Shown here in pieces: positions 4,653 to 64,000 of a stretch of DNA of 64,000 nt. The translations under genes and the position numbers were made by a program. Each line of letters begins with the position of its first letter. The first letter of the stretch is position 1. Under the pieces are notes generated by a model. It ran no database searches, was not told the DNA's origin, and saw only the letters and a list, made by a program, of their open reading frames with translations. The DNA is from Rheinheimera sp. EpRS3 (lineage in GTDB: Bacteria > Pseudomonadota > Gammaproteobacteria > Enterobacterales > Alteromonadaceae): contig NZ_LNQS01000009.1 in assembly GCF_001513785.1 (NCBI RefSeq), positions 434,001 through 498,000 of the forward strand. The letters are read 5' to 3'.

Positions 4653-4683
4653 TTGCAGGCGCATCGGCGTCGTTATGCAGTGT

Positions 4684-5685
4684 TTATGATTCTTTATTAT
4701 CTCTGCTGTTGAGTAATTGCTGCTGTCGTTTAAGCAACACATCCAGCTCTTTTGCCATGCGGATCTTTTGCTCCAGGGCACTGTCAAGCACCGCCGACAA
4801 TTCACTTAGCATACTCTGGGTTGATACTGCCTGAGGTTGCTGCACTGACATTGCAGGCGCGGATGGTTGCTGGTTGGCAATCTCTTGCGACAATTCCTCC
4901 AGTACAGTTTTGACATGCTCTGCAGTAATAACCGGGCACTCTTCCAAATAACCAAATAACAGTATTCTGTCCATTACGGTATTAATTTTTCGCGGTATGC
5001 CGCGGCTATGTTGCTGAATAAGGGCGAAACAGGCGTCTTGTAAGATACCGGCGTTGCCGCCAGCTTGTAGCAAACGGTATTGGATATAGGCTTTGGTATC
5101 TTCAATCTGAAATGCTGAGAGATTTGATGATGCAATAATTCTTTGACGAAATTGCTCCATATTCTCGGCTTGAATAATGGCATTTAATTCATTTTGACCC
5201 AACAGAAAACTTTGTAACAGTGGTTTACCATTGAGTTGAAAATTAGACAGCATGCGCAGCTCTTCAATAGAGGCCAGCGGTAAGTTTTGGGCTTCATCTA
5301 CCAGCAGCAGTGCTCTGCGATGCTGTGAATGCAGGCGTTTAAGATAGCTGTAGATAGCATCAAGATAGCTGGCTTTAGTATGCTCGGTTACCACCAAATT
5401 AAAACAGGACGCAATCATCCGAATAAGGTCGTCAGGTTCCAGTTTTGATGTGACAATCTGTTTGGCAATAATTTCGTCCTGATTCAACTGACTTAACAAC
5501 TGGTTGGCAATAGTAGTTTTTCCGGTGCCAACATCACCCGTGATGACAATAAAACCCTCACCCTGGCTTAATCCATACTGTAAATAGGCGAGGGCGCGCT
5601 TATGCAGTTTGCTGGCATAAAACAAGTTCAGGCTTGGTGTAAGCTGAAATGGCCGTTCCTTTAACCCGTAGTACTTTTCGTACAT
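4684..5685 (-). CDS. ExeA-like secretion ATPase of the PEP-CTERM locus (TIGR03015-like)
   Basis: A 333-residue AAA+ ATPase that starts with the family signature MYEKYYGLKERPFQLTPS. It has Walker A GDVGTGKTT near residues 50-58 and Walker B RRALLLVDEAQN near residues 124-135. The last 60 residues are Gln-rich and probably disordered or coiled. AAA+ proteins of this type sit in XrtA exopolysaccharide loci; ExeA homologues drive transport across the wall, but the substrate here is unknown. It is unusual that the gene is convergent with the rest of the locus, 31 bases from the barrel gene, rather than in line with it. A good ribosome site (AAGGA, 8 bases upstream) supports the ATG. Confidence 0.88.
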   Translation of the reverse strand: MYEKYYGLKERPFQLTPSLNLFYASKLHKRALAYLQYGLSQGEGFIVITGDVGTGKTTIANQLLSQLNQDEIIAKQIVTSKLEPDDLIRMIASCFNLVVTEHTKASYLDAIYSYLKRLHSQHRRALLLVDEAQNLPLASIEELRMLSNFQLNGKPLLQSFLLGQNELNAIIQAENMEQFRQRIIASSNLSAFQIEDTKAYIQYRLLQAGGNAGILQDACFALIQQHSRGIPRKINTVMDRILLFGYLEECPVITAEHVKTVLEELSQEIANQQPSAPAMSVQQPQAVSTQSMLSELSAVLDSALEQKIRMAKELDVLLKRQQQLLNSRDNKES

Positions 5686-6033
5686 AGTGAAAATCCTTTT
5701 ATAGTAACGCAGGTCTTAATTACCGCGCTTGCGGCTTGTCTGATGTGGCTTAGTTTATACAAAAAACAGCCATAACACGATGCTGACAGGCAAATGCGGC
5801 AGGGGTTTTTTCTCTTTACCTGCAGCTGGCTTAAATCGATATCGTTAAATCGTTCGCTAAGCTGTTATAAAGTCTGTAATTTCAGCAGTTTTTGCCTGCA
5901 AATTCAGCATTGCGTTTAAAAAACGTCCGAACGATAAAAGCTGCTGAAAAAACTGTTGACACATTTTCAGTGGCACCCTAGAATGCGCCCCGTGTTCAGC
6001 GCTAACGCAGGTTAGCAAAAAGCACAAAAGTGT
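5686..6033. other. 348-base intergenic region between the ATPase gene and the tRNA cluster
   Basis: No convincing gene was found here on either strand. The left part holds the leader of the minus-strand ATPase gene, including its AAGGA ribosome site and a TATAAA-like -10 candidate. The right part holds the tRNA promoter described separately. An open frame that runs through 5857-6162 on the minus strand covers the tRNA genes and has no family resemblance, so I treat it as chance. Confidence 0.6.
5956..5984 (+). promoter_or_regulatory. Sigma-70 promoter of the tRNA cluster with stringent-type discriminator
   Basis: A perfect -35 box TTGACA (5956-5961), a 17-base spacer and a TAGAAT -10 box (5979-5984) lie about 50 bases before tRNA-Ala. 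The -10 is followed directly by GCGCCCC, a GC-rich discriminator of the kind known to make stable-RNA promoters sensitive to ppGpp. Confidence 0.88.
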
Positions 6034-6109
<76 letters not shown>

Positions 6110-6123
6110 AGATTTTTTCGTGC

Positions 6124-6199
6124 GTCCCCTTCGTCTAGAGGCCTAGGACACCGCCCTTTCACGGCGGTAACAGGGGTTCGAATCCCCTAGGGGACGCCA
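6124..6199 (+). tRNA. tRNA-Glu (anticodon TTC), copy 1
   Basis: A 76-base cloverleaf with acceptor stem GTCCCCT/AGGGGAC, anticodon stem CCGCC/GGCGG with loop CTTTCAC (anticodon TTC), T-arm AGGGGTTCGAATCCCCT and encoded CCA. It follows tRNA-Ala by 14 bases and is identical over its length to the next gene. Confidence 0.97.
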
Positions 6200-6231
6200 A
6201 TTAATCTGCAATTTTGAATGAATGTCTTTGC

Positions 6232-6307
6232 GTCCCCTTCGTCTAGAGGCCTAGGACACCGCCCTTTCACGGCGGTAACAGGGGTTCGAATCCCCTAGGG
6301 GACGCCA
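6232..6307 (+). tRNA. tRNA-Glu (anticodon TTC), copy 2
   Basis: An identical second copy of the preceding tRNA-Glu gene, after a 32-base spacer. The shared upstream promoter and the tight spacing indicate one precursor transcript with all three tRNAs. Only a weak hairpin (6352-6365) follows, so the transcript end is not clear. Confidence 0.97.
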
Positions 6308-6391
6308 ATTCGCGTCATAATCTTAATTTACCAATACACATCCGCTAACAAACTCATCCTTGAGTCTTTACCTATTCTGTTTCAAACTCCA

Positions 6392-6982
6392 CTAATCTGT
6401 TTTTAACGCTGCCAATAGCTTGCCGACAAATTCACTAATCAGCGGCTGTGCCTGGCTGTTCGGATGTATGCCATCTGGTAGCATCAGCTCACTGTTAATT
6501 GCAATGTCGTCCATAAAAAACGGCCATAGTGTTATTTGATGTTTTTTTGCCAGTTGCGGGTATAAATCACTGAATTGTCTGCCGTAACGTGGTCCATAGT
6601 TTGGCGGAATGCGTATTTGCATTAACACCGGCGTGGCATTACTCTGCAGTATCAATGAAATAATGTTATTGAGGTTCGATTGCACAGTATCAATGGCAAA
6701 ACCGCGCAGGCCATCGTTACCGCCAAGCTCAATTAATACCGCGTCTGGTTGGTGTTGTTTTAACAGTGCGGGTAAACGTGCTAATCCGCCAGCGGTAGTT
6801 TCACCGCTGATGCTGGCATTAATCAACTGCCAGTCTTGCTGTTGCTGTTGTAGCAGGTGTGGCCAGCCCTGTTGCTGTTGCATGCCATAAGCTGCGCTAA
6901 GGCTGTCGCCAAGGATAAGTAATTTTTGTGCGAAACAAACCTGACTGAAAAATCCGATTAACAAAATTAAGAAAATACGCAT
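6392..6982 (-). CDS. tesA: Periplasmic SGNH-family arylesterase / lysophospholipase (TesA-like)
   Basis: A 196-residue SGNH hydrolase with a signal peptide (MRIFLILLIGFFSQVCFA). Block I is LLILGDSLSAAYG with the nucleophile Ser, block II holds the Gly in ISGETT, block III is ELGGNDGLRG, and block V is LPDGIHPN with the catalytic Asp and His. These match E. coli TesA (thioesterase I/protease I/lysophospholipase L1), which cleaves acyl-thioesters and esters in the periplasm. It is divergent from ybbA, as in E. coli, and the two ATG codons overlap in a single CATG, so each gene's promoter must lie inside the other gene. Confidence 0.95.
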   Translation of the reverse strand: MRIFLILLIGFFSQVCFAQKLLILGDSLSAAYGMQQQQGWPHLLQQQQQDWQLINASISGETTAGGLARLPALLKQHQPDAVLIELGGNDGLRGFAIDTVQSNLNNIISLILQSNATPVLMQIRIPPNYGPRYGRQFSDLYPQLAKKHQITLWPFFMDDIAINSELMLPDGIHPNSQAQPLISEFVGKLLAALKTD

Positions 6983-7688
6983 GATGAAAATACCCGAAGT
7001 TCATATTAAGGCGGTTAACCTGGCTAAGAGCGTCAAAGTTACCGATGGTTCACTCACTATCCTGCATGATATCAGTTTGACTATCAATCGCGCTGAGACA
7101 GTTGCTATTGTCGGTGCTTCAGGCTCTGGTAAGTCAACATTATTGAGTTTACTGGCCGGACTGGATGTACCTACTGCCGGTGAAGTGCATTTAGCCGGGC
7201 ACTTGCTGCATACGCTTTCAGAAGATCAGCGTGCGGCAATCCGTGCCAGAGATGTGGGTTTTGTATTTCAATCGTTTTTGCTATTACCCAGTTTGACTGC
7301 GCTGGAAAACGTTACTTTGCCTGCTGAGCTTGCCGGTGATAAACAGGCTAGACAGCGCGGGCTGGAATTATTGCAGCAGGTTGGCCTGGCACAGCGGGCA
7401 CATTTTTATCCGGCGCAATTATCCGGTGGTGAACAACAGCGTGTTGCAATAGCGCGGGCTTTTATTACGCGCCCTGCAGTACTGTTCGCCGATGAGCCTT
7501 CAGCAAATCTTGATGCTACAACAGGACGTAAAATTGAAGATTTGCTGTTTAGTTTAAACGCTGAGCAGGGCACTACACTGGTGTTGGTAACACACAATGA
7601 TGAACTGGCCGCCCGCTGTCAGCGACAGCACCGGATGCAGGCCGGACGTTTTGTTAGTGCAAATGAGGAAATGGCGCATGTGGGCTAG
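6981..7688 (+). CDS. ybbA: ABC transporter ATP-binding protein YbbA (LolD/MacB-type)
   Basis: A 235-residue ATPase with Walker A GASGSGKST, Q-loop FVFQSFLLLP, signature LSGGEQQRVAIARA, Walker B VLFADEPSANLD and H-loop LVLVTHND. It is the partner of the FtsX-like permease encoded next; the two overlap by 11 bases. The family (MacB/LolD group) usually works mechanically on membrane-anchored or periplasmic substrates rather than as a classical importer. The YbbA/YbbP substrate is unknown, although a link with the neighbouring TesA hydrolase has long been suspected from conserved gene order. Two ATGs stand in tandem at 6981; either may be used. Confidence 0.95.
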   Translation: MMKIPEVHIKAVNLAKSVKVTDGSLTILHDISLTINRAETVAIVGASGSGKSTLLSLLAGLDVPTAGEVHLAGHLLHTLSEDQRAAIRARDVGFVFQSFLLLPSLTALENVTLPAELAGDKQARQRGLELLQQVGLAQRAHFYPAQLSGGEQQRVAIARAFITRPAVLFADEPSANLDATTGRKIEDLLFSLNAEQGTTLVLVTHNDELAARCQRQHRMQAGRFVSANEEMAHVG

Positions 7689-60560: not shown

Positions 60561-60571
60561 ACAGCTAAACA

Positions 60572-60600
60572 CAAACCGCCTTCGGGCGGTTTGTTATTTA
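60572..60600 (+). terminator. Terminator of fadR
   Basis: Stem CAAACCGCC / GGCGGTTTG with a TTCG tetraloop (60572-60593) followed by TTATTTA. Confidence 0.85.
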
Positions 60601-60694: not shown

Positions 60695-62947
60695 ATGAAA
60701 GGCGCGGCGCATACAGAAGTGTATCTGGATAACAATGCTACCACACCGGTACTGCCGGTTGCTGCAGAGGCAGCGATGCATGCGATGCAGCGTGGCTATG
60801 GTAACCCCAGCAGCAGCCACGCTACCGGTATTAAAGCCAAAGCAGAACTGGAAACTACCCGCGCTTTGGCGCGGCAGTTAATCGGCGCCCGCAGTGGTGA
60901 CATTGTATTTACCTCAGGGGCGACAGAGGGCATTCAAGCCTCGATTGTTTCGGCGTTAATGGCGGCCCGGGCGCAGGGCAAAACCGGCGCAGCAACCTTA
61001 TTGCTGTATGGCGCTACTGAGCATAAAGCGGTGCCGGAAAGCCTGAAACACTGGAACCGGGTATTGCAGCTTAATGCCACGGTAAAGGCCATTCCGGTTA
61101 ATCAGCATGGTGTTTTAGACAACGACTTTATCCGCGAGCACCTGCCCTGTGCAGTAATGATTTGCACTATGGCGGCGAATAATGAAACCGGCGTAAAGCA
61201 GGATCTGGTGGCGCTGGAGCAACTGATCCGCAGCGTTAACCCGCAAGTTTACTGGATGGTAGATTGTGTGCAGGCGCTGGGCAAAATGTCGCTGAATATT
61301 GCCGATACCAGCATTGATTACGCGCCCTTTAGTGGCCATAAGCTGTACGCGCCTAAAGGCATCGGCTTTTTGTATGTACGCAAAGACACGCCTTATCAGC
61401 CTTTTATTGCCGGTGGCGGCCAGGAAAGTGGTTTACGCTCGGGTACCGAAAACCTGCCTGGTATCGCCGCTTTGCACGCCATTTTTTCTGAACTGGCCAA
61501 AACCAGCGGCTCTGTTTTTCAAACTGAAGCCACACTGTGGCACTACCGCCAGCAACTTATTGCAGCATTACAGCAGGTGTTTCCTGCTTTGGTGCTTAAC
61601 AGTGATATACCGCATGTGGTGCCCACTACGATTAATTTTTCGGTGCCGGGTTTTTACAGCAAAGACATTATGGATTTGTTTGATGCTGCCGGTATCCGCG
61701 TAAGTTCGGGTTCGGCCTGCAGTTCTAAAGTGCCCAGCAGTTTTGTGCTTGATGCCATGGGGCTGGACAGCTGGCGCTCACAAGGTGCTATCCGCTTATC
61801 CTTTGGCCCGGCGATGACTAAAGCGGAATGTGAACACGCTTGCCAGGCTATTACTGCGCTTAAAGCAGTGGTATCTAAGCATTGTCTGGTGCTGACCGAT
61901 GCCACACCAACACTGGAAATTCATGCCCGCGGCTTACTGCAGCTAAAGCATGAAGCCTTATGCAGCTATGTACTGATCTGCCCTGACAGCCTCGAAGCAC
62001 TGGTGATAGATCCGGTATTGCCGCTGGCCGGCCGTATTGCCAATATTATTCAGGGCCATGGCTTACAGTTAAAAGCCGTACTGGATACTCATTTGCATCA
62101 GGATCATCAGTCGGCACGCACAGAATTATTAACCTTGCTGGGTAATCCCTGCGCCGGTAGCGGCTGTGATGTATTAGGCTGGCCTGAACACAGCATTGAA
62201 ATTCAGCTTGGGCCCTATCAGTTAACCCGGTTGGCCACACCGGGTCATACGCCTGAAGCGGTGAGTATTTTGCTGCACAAACAGCAACAGCTGCTATGCG
62301 CTTTTACCGGTGATGTGATACTGCCAGGTGGAGTGGGCCGCACAGATTTACCCGGTGGTGATATTTCAGCACTGGCAAACAGCATCCGGCTACTGGCAGG
62401 CAAAGTAGGGCAGCAGACCTTGTTGTTATCCAGCCATGATTACGCGCAACGCTTTTTTACCAGCCTGGCACTGGCAGCATCAGAGCAGCCGCTGATCCAG
62501 GCCCTGCTGAACAATCAGCCGCACACCGAATGGCAACCGCAGTTACAGCAACAGGCTGTTACTTTACAGCAGGCCAGCAGTTATTTTTGTGGCTTGGTTG
62601 AGGTAAGTTTATCTGATGCCACTGATGTGATTGCACCAGAGCAACTGGCCGCATTTTTACAGCAATGGCCACAAATGCAGGTGGTGGATGTACGTGAGCC
62701 GCATGAGCAAAGTGCCGGTGCGCTGGCACAGTATTTACCGGCAGCTTATCTGGCACAACACAGCGTGCAGGAAATACCGTTATCCAAGCTGGCCGATGCG
62801 GTTATTCACCAGCAGTTGCACAAGGAGCAGCCTTTGTTGCTGGTATGCCGCTCAGGTAACCGTAGCCTGGTAGCCTGCAAAGTGCTGGGGCGTTTGGGCT
62901 TTCAGCAGGTATTTAACCTAAAAGGTGGCACTGCGCTGCTGTGTTAA
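60695..62947 (+). CDS. Cysteine desulfurase - persulfide dioxygenase - rhodanese fusion protein
   Basis: A 750-residue three-domain protein. Residues 1-400 form a NifS/IscS-type cysteine desulfurase: VYLDNNATTP at the start, PLP Lys216 in SGHKLYAPKG, and the persulfide Cys342 in SSGSACSS. Residues about 405-620 form a metallo-beta-lactamase domain of ETHE1/persulfide-dioxygenase type: HLHQDH (His466, His468, Asp470, His471), His518 in TPGHTPE, Asp540 in FTGDVILPGGVGRTD, and His581 in SSHDY. Residues about 650-750 form a rhodanese: Cys718 in CRSGNRS. All key residues appear intact. It could strip sulfur from cysteine, oxidise the persulfide and transfer it. Two-domain dioxygenase-rhodanese fusions are known; I do not know of this three-domain form being studied. 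ATG 60695. Confidence 0.88.
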   Translation: MKGAAHTEVYLDNNATTPVLPVAAEAAMHAMQRGYGNPSSSHATGIKAKAELETTRALARQLIGARSGDIVFTSGATEGIQASIVSALMAARAQGKTGAATLLLYGATEHKAVPESLKHWNRVLQLNATVKAIPVNQHGVLDNDFIREHLPCAVMICTMAANNETGVKQDLVALEQLIRSVNPQVYWMVDCVQALGKMSLNIADTSIDYAPFSGHKLYAPKGIGFLYVRKDTPYQPFIAGGGQESGLRSGTENLPGIAALHAIFSELAKTSGSVFQTEATLWHYRQQLIAALQQVFPALVLNSDIPHVVPTTINFSVPGFYSKDIMDLFDAAGIRVSSGSACSSKVPSSFVLDAMGLDSWRSQGAIRLSFGPAMTKAECEHACQAITALKAVVSKHCLVLTDATPTLEIHARGLLQLKHEALCSYVLICPDSLEALVIDPVLPLAGRIANIIQGHGLQLKAVLDTHLHQDHQSARTELLTLLGNPCAGSGCDVLGWPEHSIEIQLGPYQLTRLATPGHTPEAVSILLHKQQQLLCAFTGDVILPGGVGRTDLPGGDISALANSIRLLAGKVGQQTLLLSSHDYAQRFFTSLALAASEQPLIQALLNNQPHTEWQPQLQQQAVTLQQASSYFCGLVEVSLSDATDVIAPEQLAAFLQQWPQMQVVDVREPHEQSAGALAQYLPAAYLAQHSVQEIPLSKLADAVIHQQLHKEQPLLLVCRSGNRSLVACKVLGRLGFQQVFNLKGGTALLC

Positions 62948-62957
62948 AACAGTTGTG

Positions 62958-62984
62958 AAAAAAACGCCAGCAGTTGCTGGCGTT
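62958..62984 (-). terminator. Terminator of the sigma-chrR operon
   Basis: On the minus strand AACGCCAGCA-AC-TGCTGGCGTT is followed by TTTTTC. The same stem may also serve the convergent fusion gene. Confidence 0.85.
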
Positions 62985-62999
62985 AATCGGGTATGGCGG

Positions 63000-63689
63000 T
63001 TAGTAAAAAAACTGCTGTAGCGGGTTAAGTAACCGGGTTAAGCCTTTTTTAAACTTTAACGGCGCACTTAGTACCGACAGGCATAAGCAATCTTCGTCCG
63101 CCATGGTGCGCGGTGTGTGGGTATCGTCCGGTGAGTTAATCAGCAAATCACCGGCTTTATATTCGCCGTTTTCATCAACAATTTTACCGGCCAGCACTAA
63201 TGTCATTTCCAGCCCCAGGTGAGTATGCTGCGGCACTTCAGTGTCTTTACTGATATACAGTAACGATACATGATAATCGTTGCCTGCTGGCAATTTCGCC
63301 GTTGCTATACCACCCAGATGCAACCATTTGCCGTGGTTTGCTGCCAGGCGTTGTAAGGCACGCGGCACAACAAACTCACGCTGGTTAACTATAATGGGCT
63401 CAGCGGCCTGTGCAGACAATTGCGCCTGCGTGGCAGCAGCCTGTTTAGACAATTGCGGCTGCGCCATAATGTCGTTCAGCATATGTTGCCAGTCGGTAGT
63501 GTTGGTTTTAACCGGTTGCTGCGTCAACTGACAGGCTAAATCCGCGGTAATATCACGGCTAAGCTGCTGACAATGCGGGCACAGGTCAATATGCGCTGCC
63601 ACAGCCAGCGCTACGTCGGCGCTTAAAGAGCCTTCGGCATGTTGCTCCAGCAACGACATGCCAGGGTGAAACTTAATTGCGTGCGCCAT
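63000..63689 (-). CDS. ChrR-family zinc anti-sigma factor with cupin domain
   Basis: A 229-residue protein of the ChrR group. The N-terminal anti-sigma domain has the zinc motif HIDLCPHC (HxxxCxxC, about residues 32-39), and the C-terminal cupin (about 120-215) contains PQHTHLGLEMTLVLAGKIVDENGEYKAGDLL. ChrR binds and holds the adjacent ECF sigma factor (RpoE type) and releases it on singlet oxygen or organic hydroperoxide. It overlaps the sigma gene by 17 bases, so both are coexpressed. The stress it senses here is inferred from family. Confidence 0.93.
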   Translation of the reverse strand: MAHAIKFHPGMSLLEQHAEGSLSADVALAVAAHIDLCPHCQQLSRDITADLACQLTQQPVKTNTTDWQHMLNDIMAQPQLSKQAAATQAQLSAQAAEPIIVNQREFVVPRALQRLAANHGKWLHLGGIATAKLPAGNDYHVSLLYISKDTEVPQHTHLGLEMTLVLAGKIVDENGEYKAGDLLINSPDDTHTPRTMADEDCLCLSVLSAPLKFKKGLTRLLNPLQQFFY

Positions 63690-64000
63690 CTAATGCCTCT
63701 CTTAATCTGTCCAGCGCTAAGCGGATGCGCGACTTCACTGTACCCAGTGGAATAGCCAGTTCATCCGATACTTCCTGATGCGATTTTTCCTGCAAATATA
63801 CTCTTTCCATTACCTCGCGCTGTGCCGGCGGCAGGCTGGCAAAGTGCGGTGCTAATTTTTCCATCAGCAACTGTGTGTCCCATTGTGAGGCATCGGTGTC
63901 GGCTTCCTGCTCCGGGTATTCACCGTTAAGCCATAAATCATCAGCACTGACATCATCTTTGCGGCTTTGCTTTTTGCGGAGCATATCAAAGCGCACATTT
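63673..64000 (-). CDS. ECF RNA polymerase sigma factor (partner of ChrR), 5' end outside window
   Basis: The frame is open to the right edge, so the N-terminal (region 2) part is cut off. The visible residues begin NVRFDMLRKKQSRKD (end of region 2, as in RIDxLRR) and include region 4: LPPAQREVMERVYLQEKSHQEVSDELAIPLGTVKSRIRLALDRLREAL (split over two helices, helix-turn-helix). It overlaps the downstream chrR gene by 17 bases. The pair matches the RpoE-ChrR singlet-oxygen system. Confidence 0.93.
   Translation of the reverse strand, partial: NVRFDMLRKKQSRKDDVSADDLWLNGEYPEQEADTDASQWDTQLLMEKLAPHFASLPPAQREVMERVYLQEKSHQEVSDELAIPLGTVKSRIRLALDRLREALDGARN

Follow-up and report, generated by a model that had tools for sequence, protein, structure and literature searches.

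Within a 64,000-nucleotide stretch of the Rheinheimera sp. EpRS3 genome (contig NZ_LNQS01000009.1, forward-strand positions 434,001 to 498,000; the window, below) lies a gene whose product joins three sulfur-handling domains in a single chain: a class I cysteine desulfurase (CD), an ETHE1-like persulfide dioxygenase (PDO) and a rhodanese (Rhd). This CD-PDO-Rhd fusion is a real, conserved family. Two-domain CD-Rhd and PDO-Rhd fusions are known; what appears to be new is all three domains in one chain, by which one conserved protein, as yet without a proper name, unites both characterised fusion types. The best explanation that we can offer, held with moderate confidence on the strength of the sequences, is an enzyme dependent on pyridoxal 5'-phosphate (PLP) and probably on iron that would process cysteine sulfur, with a relay from CD to Rhd as its core and the PDO as an add-on.

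One chain, three domains and a conserved family

The gene and the residues on which the argument turns lie as follows, conservation being counted over 105 distinct family members.

60695..62947, + strand: CD-PDO-Rhd fusion gene, a single open frame of 750 codons with an ATG start and no internal stop
60719..61858, + strand: class I cysteine desulfurase (CD) domain, about residues 9-388 (Aminotran_5; NifS the best NCBIfam model; Nfs1/NifS/IscS by Foldseek)
61922..62614, + strand: ETHE1-like persulfide dioxygenase (PDO) domain of metallo-beta-lactamase (MBL) fold, about residues 410-640 (phmmer, Foldseek)
62627..62941, + strand: rhodanese (Rhd) domain, about residues 645-749 (Pfam Rhodanese 648-746)
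61340..61342, + strand: Lys216, K in 105/105 members
61718..61720, + strand: Cys342 in SSGSACSS, C in 105/105 members
62090..62092, + strand: His466, predicted first iron ligand, in the motif T465-H-L-H-Q-D-H471; H in 103/105 members
62246..62248, + strand: His518, predicted second iron ligand, kept in 103/105 members
62312..62314, + strand: Asp540, predicted third iron ligand, kept in 103/105 members
62846..62848, + strand: Cys718, predicted rhodanese catalytic cysteine, in CRSGNRS; C718, R719, G721 and R723 in 105/105 members

The 105 sequences derive from 132 of 135 loci, with the first 60 residues ignored; two loci truncated at contig ends (L073 and L078) and one without a fusion (L115) were dropped, and several loci carried under genome numbers and under names come from the same genomes. 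A further relative, L156, was added later and stands outside the 105-member count and the tree described below; it was scored as a 106th, distant member. Lys216 is presumably the lysine that forms the Schiff base with PLP, and Cys342 we take to be the persulfide cysteine of the desulfurase. A reading made from the window's sequence only had singled out Cys342, His466 and Cys718, and their codons lie exactly where its residue numbers place them. Its central claim, that three domains with their key residues share one chain, is borne out by the open frame, by Pfam, by alignment with a solved PDO-Rhd fusion and by structural models.

All three Pfam matches exceed their cut-offs (Aminotran_5 at residues 9-380, 1.2e-58; Lactamase_B at 423-471, 7.8e-6; Rhodanese at 648-746, 1.3e-8), and among the 25 of 36 NCBIfam families listed none spans the full chain and none attains its cut-off. 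NifS is the best NCBIfam model for the CD part, at 273.1 bits against a cut-off of 530.75, followed by IscS at 206.9 against 643.2, so that by its residues the domain is a class I (IscS/NifS) desulfurase that scores below the equivalog cut-off for a NifS or IscS orthologue. Its sequence matches in the PDB are to NifS/IscS-type desulfurases (1ecx, 8.9e-59), and residues 422-746 align in one stretch with the solved PDO-Rhd fusion PRF of Burkholderia (Paraburkholderia) phytofirmans (BpPRF; PDB 5ve3-5ve5). The PDO domain by itself matches 9rhq, 8zbd, 4ysb, BpPRF and ETHE1 in phmmer searches. AlphaFold2, given an alignment of 42 sequences including the window protein, produced a full-length model with a predicted local distance difference test score (pLDDT) of 85.4 and a predicted template modelling score (pTM) of 0.83, and a model of residues 390-750 alone with values of 87.3 and 0.88. 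Among the Foldseek matches listed for the whole chain are Nfs1/NifS/IscS-type desulfurases and selenocysteine lyases; for the PDO-Rhd part BpPRF (5ve3) is best, and 3tp9, 3r2u and ETHE1 are also found. A search of a viral fold library with the model gave mostly PLP enzymes and added nothing. In the sole annotated copy encountered, the protein is labelled "aminotransferase class V-fold PLP-dependent enzyme".

That the chain might be an assembly artefact, a read-through or a chance arrangement is ruled out, as the fusion is full length in 31 of 31 genomes sampled from the genus (source genome included) and the ratio of non-synonymous to synonymous substitution rates (omega) is well below 1 in each domain wherever sequence pairs were usable. 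Three of 29 other relatives also have it in full length. Sampling of the order gave matches to the fusion (E up to 1e-90) in 43 of 394 genomes, spread over 13 of 114 genera; 41 span the whole length and two, from separate genera (G778 and G787), are partial. An even sample of the class gave the fusion in 1 of 369 genomes, that of the source, besides three lone desulfurases (E up to 1e-75), and a sample of the phylum gave 10 matches in 398 (E up to 1e-80), nine from the order or nearer and one, partial, from another order (G1036). Among the best 80 of 563 relatives the fusion occurs in Rheinheimera, Arsukibacterium, Alishewanella, Alkalimonas, Pseudoalteromonas, Thalassotalea, Thalassomonas, Shewanella and other Gammaproteobacteria, the closest named ones being R. 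hassiensis and R. pacifica, at 97%. A match on a Microvirga plasmid (L115, 6028-9209) was rejected as a fusion, its PDO, transporter and desulfurase being consecutive separate genes.

A FastTree phylogeny of the desulfurase part was built from 87 of the 105 fusions (18 near-duplicates of kept rows were omitted) and 15 unfused desulfurases drawn from the best unfused matches. A branch with local support of 100 separates all 87 fusions from the 15 unfused desulfurases; the program warns of long branches, L117, L118, L150 and L151 among them. Because the fusion desulfurases form one clade against the unfused ones, the simplest reading of this tree is that the fusion arose once.

The sequence-only reading had noted that dioxygenase-rhodanese fusions (CstB and PRF) are known, and that fusion to a desulfurase would tie cysteine breakdown to sulfur disposal. 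Searches of the open-licence full texts of PubMed Central brought up CD-Rhd and PDO-Rhd fusions and no protein with all three domains, which may have been described elsewhere. What the reading did not mention is that a fusion of desulfurase and rhodanese has already been characterised (PMC8931425). This protein, CD-Rhd of Pseudorhodoferax sp. Leaf274 (WP_056898193.1), has a desulfurase, found through COG1104, and a rhodanese in one chain with both catalytic cysteines, but has a theoretical mass of 54 kDa, and the main text of its report does not describe a dioxygenase domain (PMC8931425). Compared by description, its two cysteines (Cys334 and Cys466) are 132 residues apart, against 376 in the window protein (PMC12319549). 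About 257 residues separate CD from Rhd in the window protein, which sets it apart from a two-domain CD-Rhd; the nearest to that form is the variant L117, with about 125. BpPRF shares the order of PDO and then a single rhodanese, end to end over residues 422-746, and lacks the desulfurase; superposition of the model on it gives a TM-score of only about 0.5 and a root-mean-square deviation of 16, so that the relative placement of the domains differs in the model. CstB of Staphylococcus aureus, which we take to be the Foldseek match 3r2u, similarly unites PDO and rhodanese in one chain without a desulfurase.

Active sites and the putative path of sulfur

Eight residues of the CD (H110, N163, D190, Q193, H215, K216, C342 and R367) and seven of the Rhd (D665, R667, E668, C718, R719, G721 and R723) are invariant in all 105 members and in the distant 106th. 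We take the His, Asp, Gln and Arg positions of the CD set to be PLP-site residues, and the loop C718-R-S-G-N-R723 has the CxxGxR form of an active rhodanese. A persulfide relay from CD to Rhd is the best reading of these invariant sites and, by analogy with the Pseudorhodoferax protein, a highly probable one. The latter is a bifunctional homodimer in which the rhodanese cysteine accepts sulfur from the CD and hands it to other acceptors; its C466S variant is reported to have about tenfold lower CD activity with glutathione (GSH) or beta-mercaptoethanol, and cysteine, unlike thiosulfate, allows it to persulfidate roGFP2 (PMC8931425). It has since been used in the cysteine sensor CyReB (PMC12319549).

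The middle domain holds the 2-His-1-carboxylate iron triad of the ETHE1 superfamily (H466, H518 and D540), which is kept in 103 of 105 members, and in 103 of 106 with the distant relative. Of four other positions, H468, H581 and C632 are each conserved in 104 of the 105 and Y583 in 102, C632 aligning with the CG cysteine of BpPRF. Elsewhere in the network there is more variation: D470 is present in 71 members, H471 in 65, R549 in 91 and D551 in 64, with Asn in 27. The full set of 12 PDO positions is complete in 37 members, the window protein among them, and incomplete in 68. Correspondence with the enzyme of Acidithiobacillus caldus (AcPDO), set by motif and counting, pairs its T56, H59, D61, H62, R139, D141, H171, Y173 and C224 with T465, H468, D470, H471, R549, D551, H581, Y583 and C632 of the window protein, which by this counting makes C632 the counterpart of the essential C224. 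In AcPDO the variants D61A, H62A and H171A are reported to have no measurable activity, and alanine at the counterparts of R549 and D551 leaves 0.4% and 1.5% (PMC6060420). To judge by these residues, the PDO of the window protein is expected to bind iron and may be able to oxidise a persulfide.

Which persulfide it might oxidise is a separate matter. GSH is bound by the counterparts of R549 and Y583 whatever the PDO type, and in type I also by R190 and K212; in type III, that of CstB, the third motif His is replaced by Phe or Tyr (PMC6060420). The window protein has His471 at that place, unlike CstB, and differs also from type I PDO and PRF, since the arginine that contacts GSH in the NPR motif of PRF, equivalent to AcPDO R190, aligns with Leu600 and the lysine of the PK motif, equivalent to K212, has no clear counterpart. 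The "intact ETHE1-type dioxygenase" of the sequence-only reading is therefore upheld for the three iron ligands and for the central residues that form hydrogen bonds, and not for the type I GSH-binding arginine. Its proposed route, from cysteine through persulfide to oxidised sulfur, is plausible, whereas glutathione persulfide (GSSH) as the PDO substrate is not established, because that arginine is absent.

In glyoxalase II the counterparts of D470 and H471 are second-metal ligands. That the middle domain might be a glyoxalase II-like hydrolase has in its favour that NCBIfam GSH_gloB scores 59.7 bits against 35.8 for Blh, both far under their cut-offs. Since the second-site residues vary and the first-site ligands do not, a mono-metal site is favoured over a two-metal one. 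The domain's GRTD and HDY motifs, like its best PDB matches, are of PDO type; we consider such a hydrolase highly improbable. Somewhat less so, though still improbable, is a PRF-like enzyme with reversed flow, in which the rhodanese would make a low-molecular persulfide from thiosulfate, the PDO would convert this to sulfite that can be assimilated, and the CD would supply or accept sulfur as a side branch. The order of PDO and Rhd and the best PDB match are those of BpPRF, which the title of its report describes as functioning in sulfur assimilation, but the type I arginine of PRF is absent, the supposed side branch is the most conserved domain, and the Pseudorhodoferax fusion prefers cysteine over thiosulfate (PMC8931425).

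Because the CD and Rhd sites are invariant, the PDO network is variable and the type I arginine is missing, the core of the protein is probably a cysteine-fed relay from CD to Rhd. The direction of sulfur flow, metal, PDO substrate, products and physiological role that we infer would then be these. The CD domain would convert cysteine to alanine, leaving a persulfide on Cys342, from which the sulfur would move to Cys718 of the rhodanese, as in the characterised CD-Rhd fusion, and on to a thiol acceptor. Where the PDO site is functional, as it probably is in the window protein, the iron centre and O2 would oxidise the resulting persulfide to sulfite, which may leave as such or be captured by the rhodanese persulfide to give thiosulfate, the PDO serving as an attached oxidiser that removes surplus sulfane sulfur derived from cysteine. 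Taken by itself, the PDO of the window protein is probably active; for the whole chain, converting cysteine with O2 to alanine and either sulfite or thiosulfate, we put the chances at about even. Any sulfite so made would need an outlet, be it export, reduction, oxidation by a different enzyme or capture as thiosulfate. If the full reaction does take place, these bacteria would have their own route from cysteine to oxidised sulfur, cysteine dioxygenase having been found in 0 of 60 relatives. A bolder version, which we regard as doubtful, is that of an intramolecular cysteine-sulfur oxidase, in which the PDO has given up free GSSH and would oxidise a persulfide delivered in cis, with no sulfide released; were it so, cysteine and O2 would yield alanine and sulfite or thiosulfate by a route that bypasses cysteine dioxygenase.

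The dioxygenase domain weighed

Several observations weigh against the explanation preferred here. Both residues of the D470-H471 pair are present in 65 of 105 members and the pair is incomplete in 40, and since the pair is essential in AcPDO, PDO activity cannot be assumed family-wide. Arginine occurs in none of the 105 at the R190 column (Leu in 89, Val in 8, Ala in 4, Glu in 2 and a gap in 2), and for K212 the nearest candidate, Lys at position 617 in an unsure alignment, is found in 49 of 105 and is Leu in the window protein. Nor is the fusion the sole PDO of its genome, which has a separate cluster (L154) described below. Sulfite oxidase (PF03404, a family that does not cover every sulfite-oxidising enzyme) is absent from the source genome and present in 35 of 394 genomes of the order, and shows no association with the fusion: the two overlap in 3 of the 43 fusion genomes (G478, where it is a fragment with a stop, G580 and G707), about 3.8 being expected. 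Finally, the neighbouring genes differ by genus, so that gene context reveals no function and lends no support to cysteine catabolism.

The pair follows the genera to some degree. Rheinheimera retains it in 21 of 24 members, Alkalimonas in 5 of 5, Shewanella in 11 of 11 and Pseudoalteromonas in 2 of 12; it is missing from all 7 Arsukibacterium, 5 Alishewanella and 6 Thalassotalea and from the single Thalassomonas, and present in 26 of the 34 members without such a genus name. Its state (51 rows with it, 36 without) has changed at least five times on the desulfurase tree. In two loci of Arsukibacterium type (L062 and L022) a short repetitive insertion rich in Gln, His and Leu stands directly after HxH, where the pair is lost.

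Three variants go further: G778 (L116), G787 (L117) and G1036 (L156) have lost the metal ligands of the PDO site and that site only, all CD and Rhd residues being retained. Whole stretches are changed in the three genomes, which makes sequencing error unlikely as the cause, and the middle segment of L117 has shrunk to about 125 residues from the approximately 257 of the window protein. With their common gene order, L116 and L117 may represent a single lineage. Because such variants lost the dioxygenase site and kept the other two, the family is a ready comparative series on how the production of persulfide from cysteine is coupled to its removal.

They also lend some weight to a different view, that the protein delivers sulfur and does not dispose of it: CD and Rhd would supply persulfide to biosynthetic pathways or to proteins that become persulfidated, the middle domain being mainly a scaffold or regulator with its dioxygenase activity lost or fading. 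In keeping with this are the 3 of 106 members in which only the metal site is gone, the 40 of 105 with an incomplete D-H pair and its repeated changes across the 87 rows, and the position of the PDO as the least constrained part of the fusion, with a mean identity to the window protein of 0.48 against 0.71 for the CD and 0.53 for the Rhd. A scaffold, however, would not need the iron ligands and their neighbours that nearly all members keep, and purifying selection is evident in the groups with usable pairs. Mean omega of the PDO is 0.057 within the group of the window protein (10 pairs) and lies at 0.08-0.16 in five more groups (1-6 pairs each), and that of the desulfurase is 0.04-0.08. Across the three domains the means span 0.04-0.16 in the six groups, out of seven, that had usable pairs, often as few as 1-6. 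Low PDO values persist in three of the four groups that lost the D-H pair (Arsukibacterium, 3 pairs; Pseudoalteromonas, 2; Thalassotalea, 1), the PDO pairs of Alishewanella being too diverged for an estimate; the majority of distant pairs were dropped as saturated, leaving 10, 2, 0, 3, 2, 6 and 1 PDO pairs per group. Since PDO omega is low, a relic is disfavoured, and we think pure delivery unlikely, retaining the relay with an attached oxidiser as the preferred reading.

The L154 cluster (G000:C1:974000-988000, ORFs 4683-7678, about 978.7-981.7 kb) has a Blh-like PDO of 292 residues without the sulfurtransferase part (393.4 bits over the PDO part of the Blh model, below the cut-off of 625 for the whole), a rhodanese, a TauE-like protein and two TsuA/YeeE-like halves that match the TsuA model only weakly, TauE and YeeE being names assigned from sequence resemblance. 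It resembles the fusion in placing a PDO and a rhodanese in the same cell, and differs in that the genes are unfused. The cluster looks like one for sulfide detoxification, the usual equipment against sulfide, and since sulfide is already covered, the fusion probably handles sulfane sulfur of a different origin, cysteine being the simplest candidate. Cysteine dioxygenase was found in none of the 60 relatives examined, 34 of them fusion carriers, and in 1 of 14 control genomes, so that the standard route from cysteine to sulfite was not seen; being absent both with and without the fusion, it gives the preferred explanation weak support. A survey for PDOs (E up to 1e-6) had missed the L154 enzyme, which BLAST later found, so that absences in that survey count for little. 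In some members of the genus (G019 and G023; loci L146 and L147) there are extra proteins of 456 residues with MBL-type and rhodanese matches, a length that we take to be CstB-like.

Gene neighbourhood

In loci of Rheinheimera type the fusion lies between a fadR-type gene and convergent chrR- and ECF (extracytoplasmic function)-type genes (49, 49 and 48 of 105 loci). In the window the ChrR-type and ECF sigma-type pair occupies the edge (63000-63999, - strand) and is convergent to the fusion and separate from it, as the sequence-only reading had said; no functional link to the pair was found in these loci. Among the loci listed, such neighbours are confined to the Rheinheimera-Alishewanella-Arsukibacterium-Alkalimonas type. 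A functional operon with ECF/ChrR or FadR was rejected, as neighbours differ between genera and terminator-like stems stand on both sides, in a scan that performed at chance level (4 stem sites against 3.9 in shuffled sequences, and 2 promoter-like sites against 2.6).

60571..60594, + strand: terminator-like stem after the upstream fadR-type gene
62963..62984, - strand: terminator-like stem between the fusion and the convergent chrR-type gene

Other genera have different neighbours again. In one context of Pseudoalteromonas type (11 of 105 loci: L083, L084, L085, L089, L090, L092, L098, L100, L101, L113 and L122), genes for a TusA-type protein and an AI-2E-type transporter precede the fusion, TusA two genes upstream, which would suit sulfur delivery. 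By comparison with E. coli, however, this stretch resembles a bepA-arsC-perM-like locus, presumably older, beside which the fusion lies.
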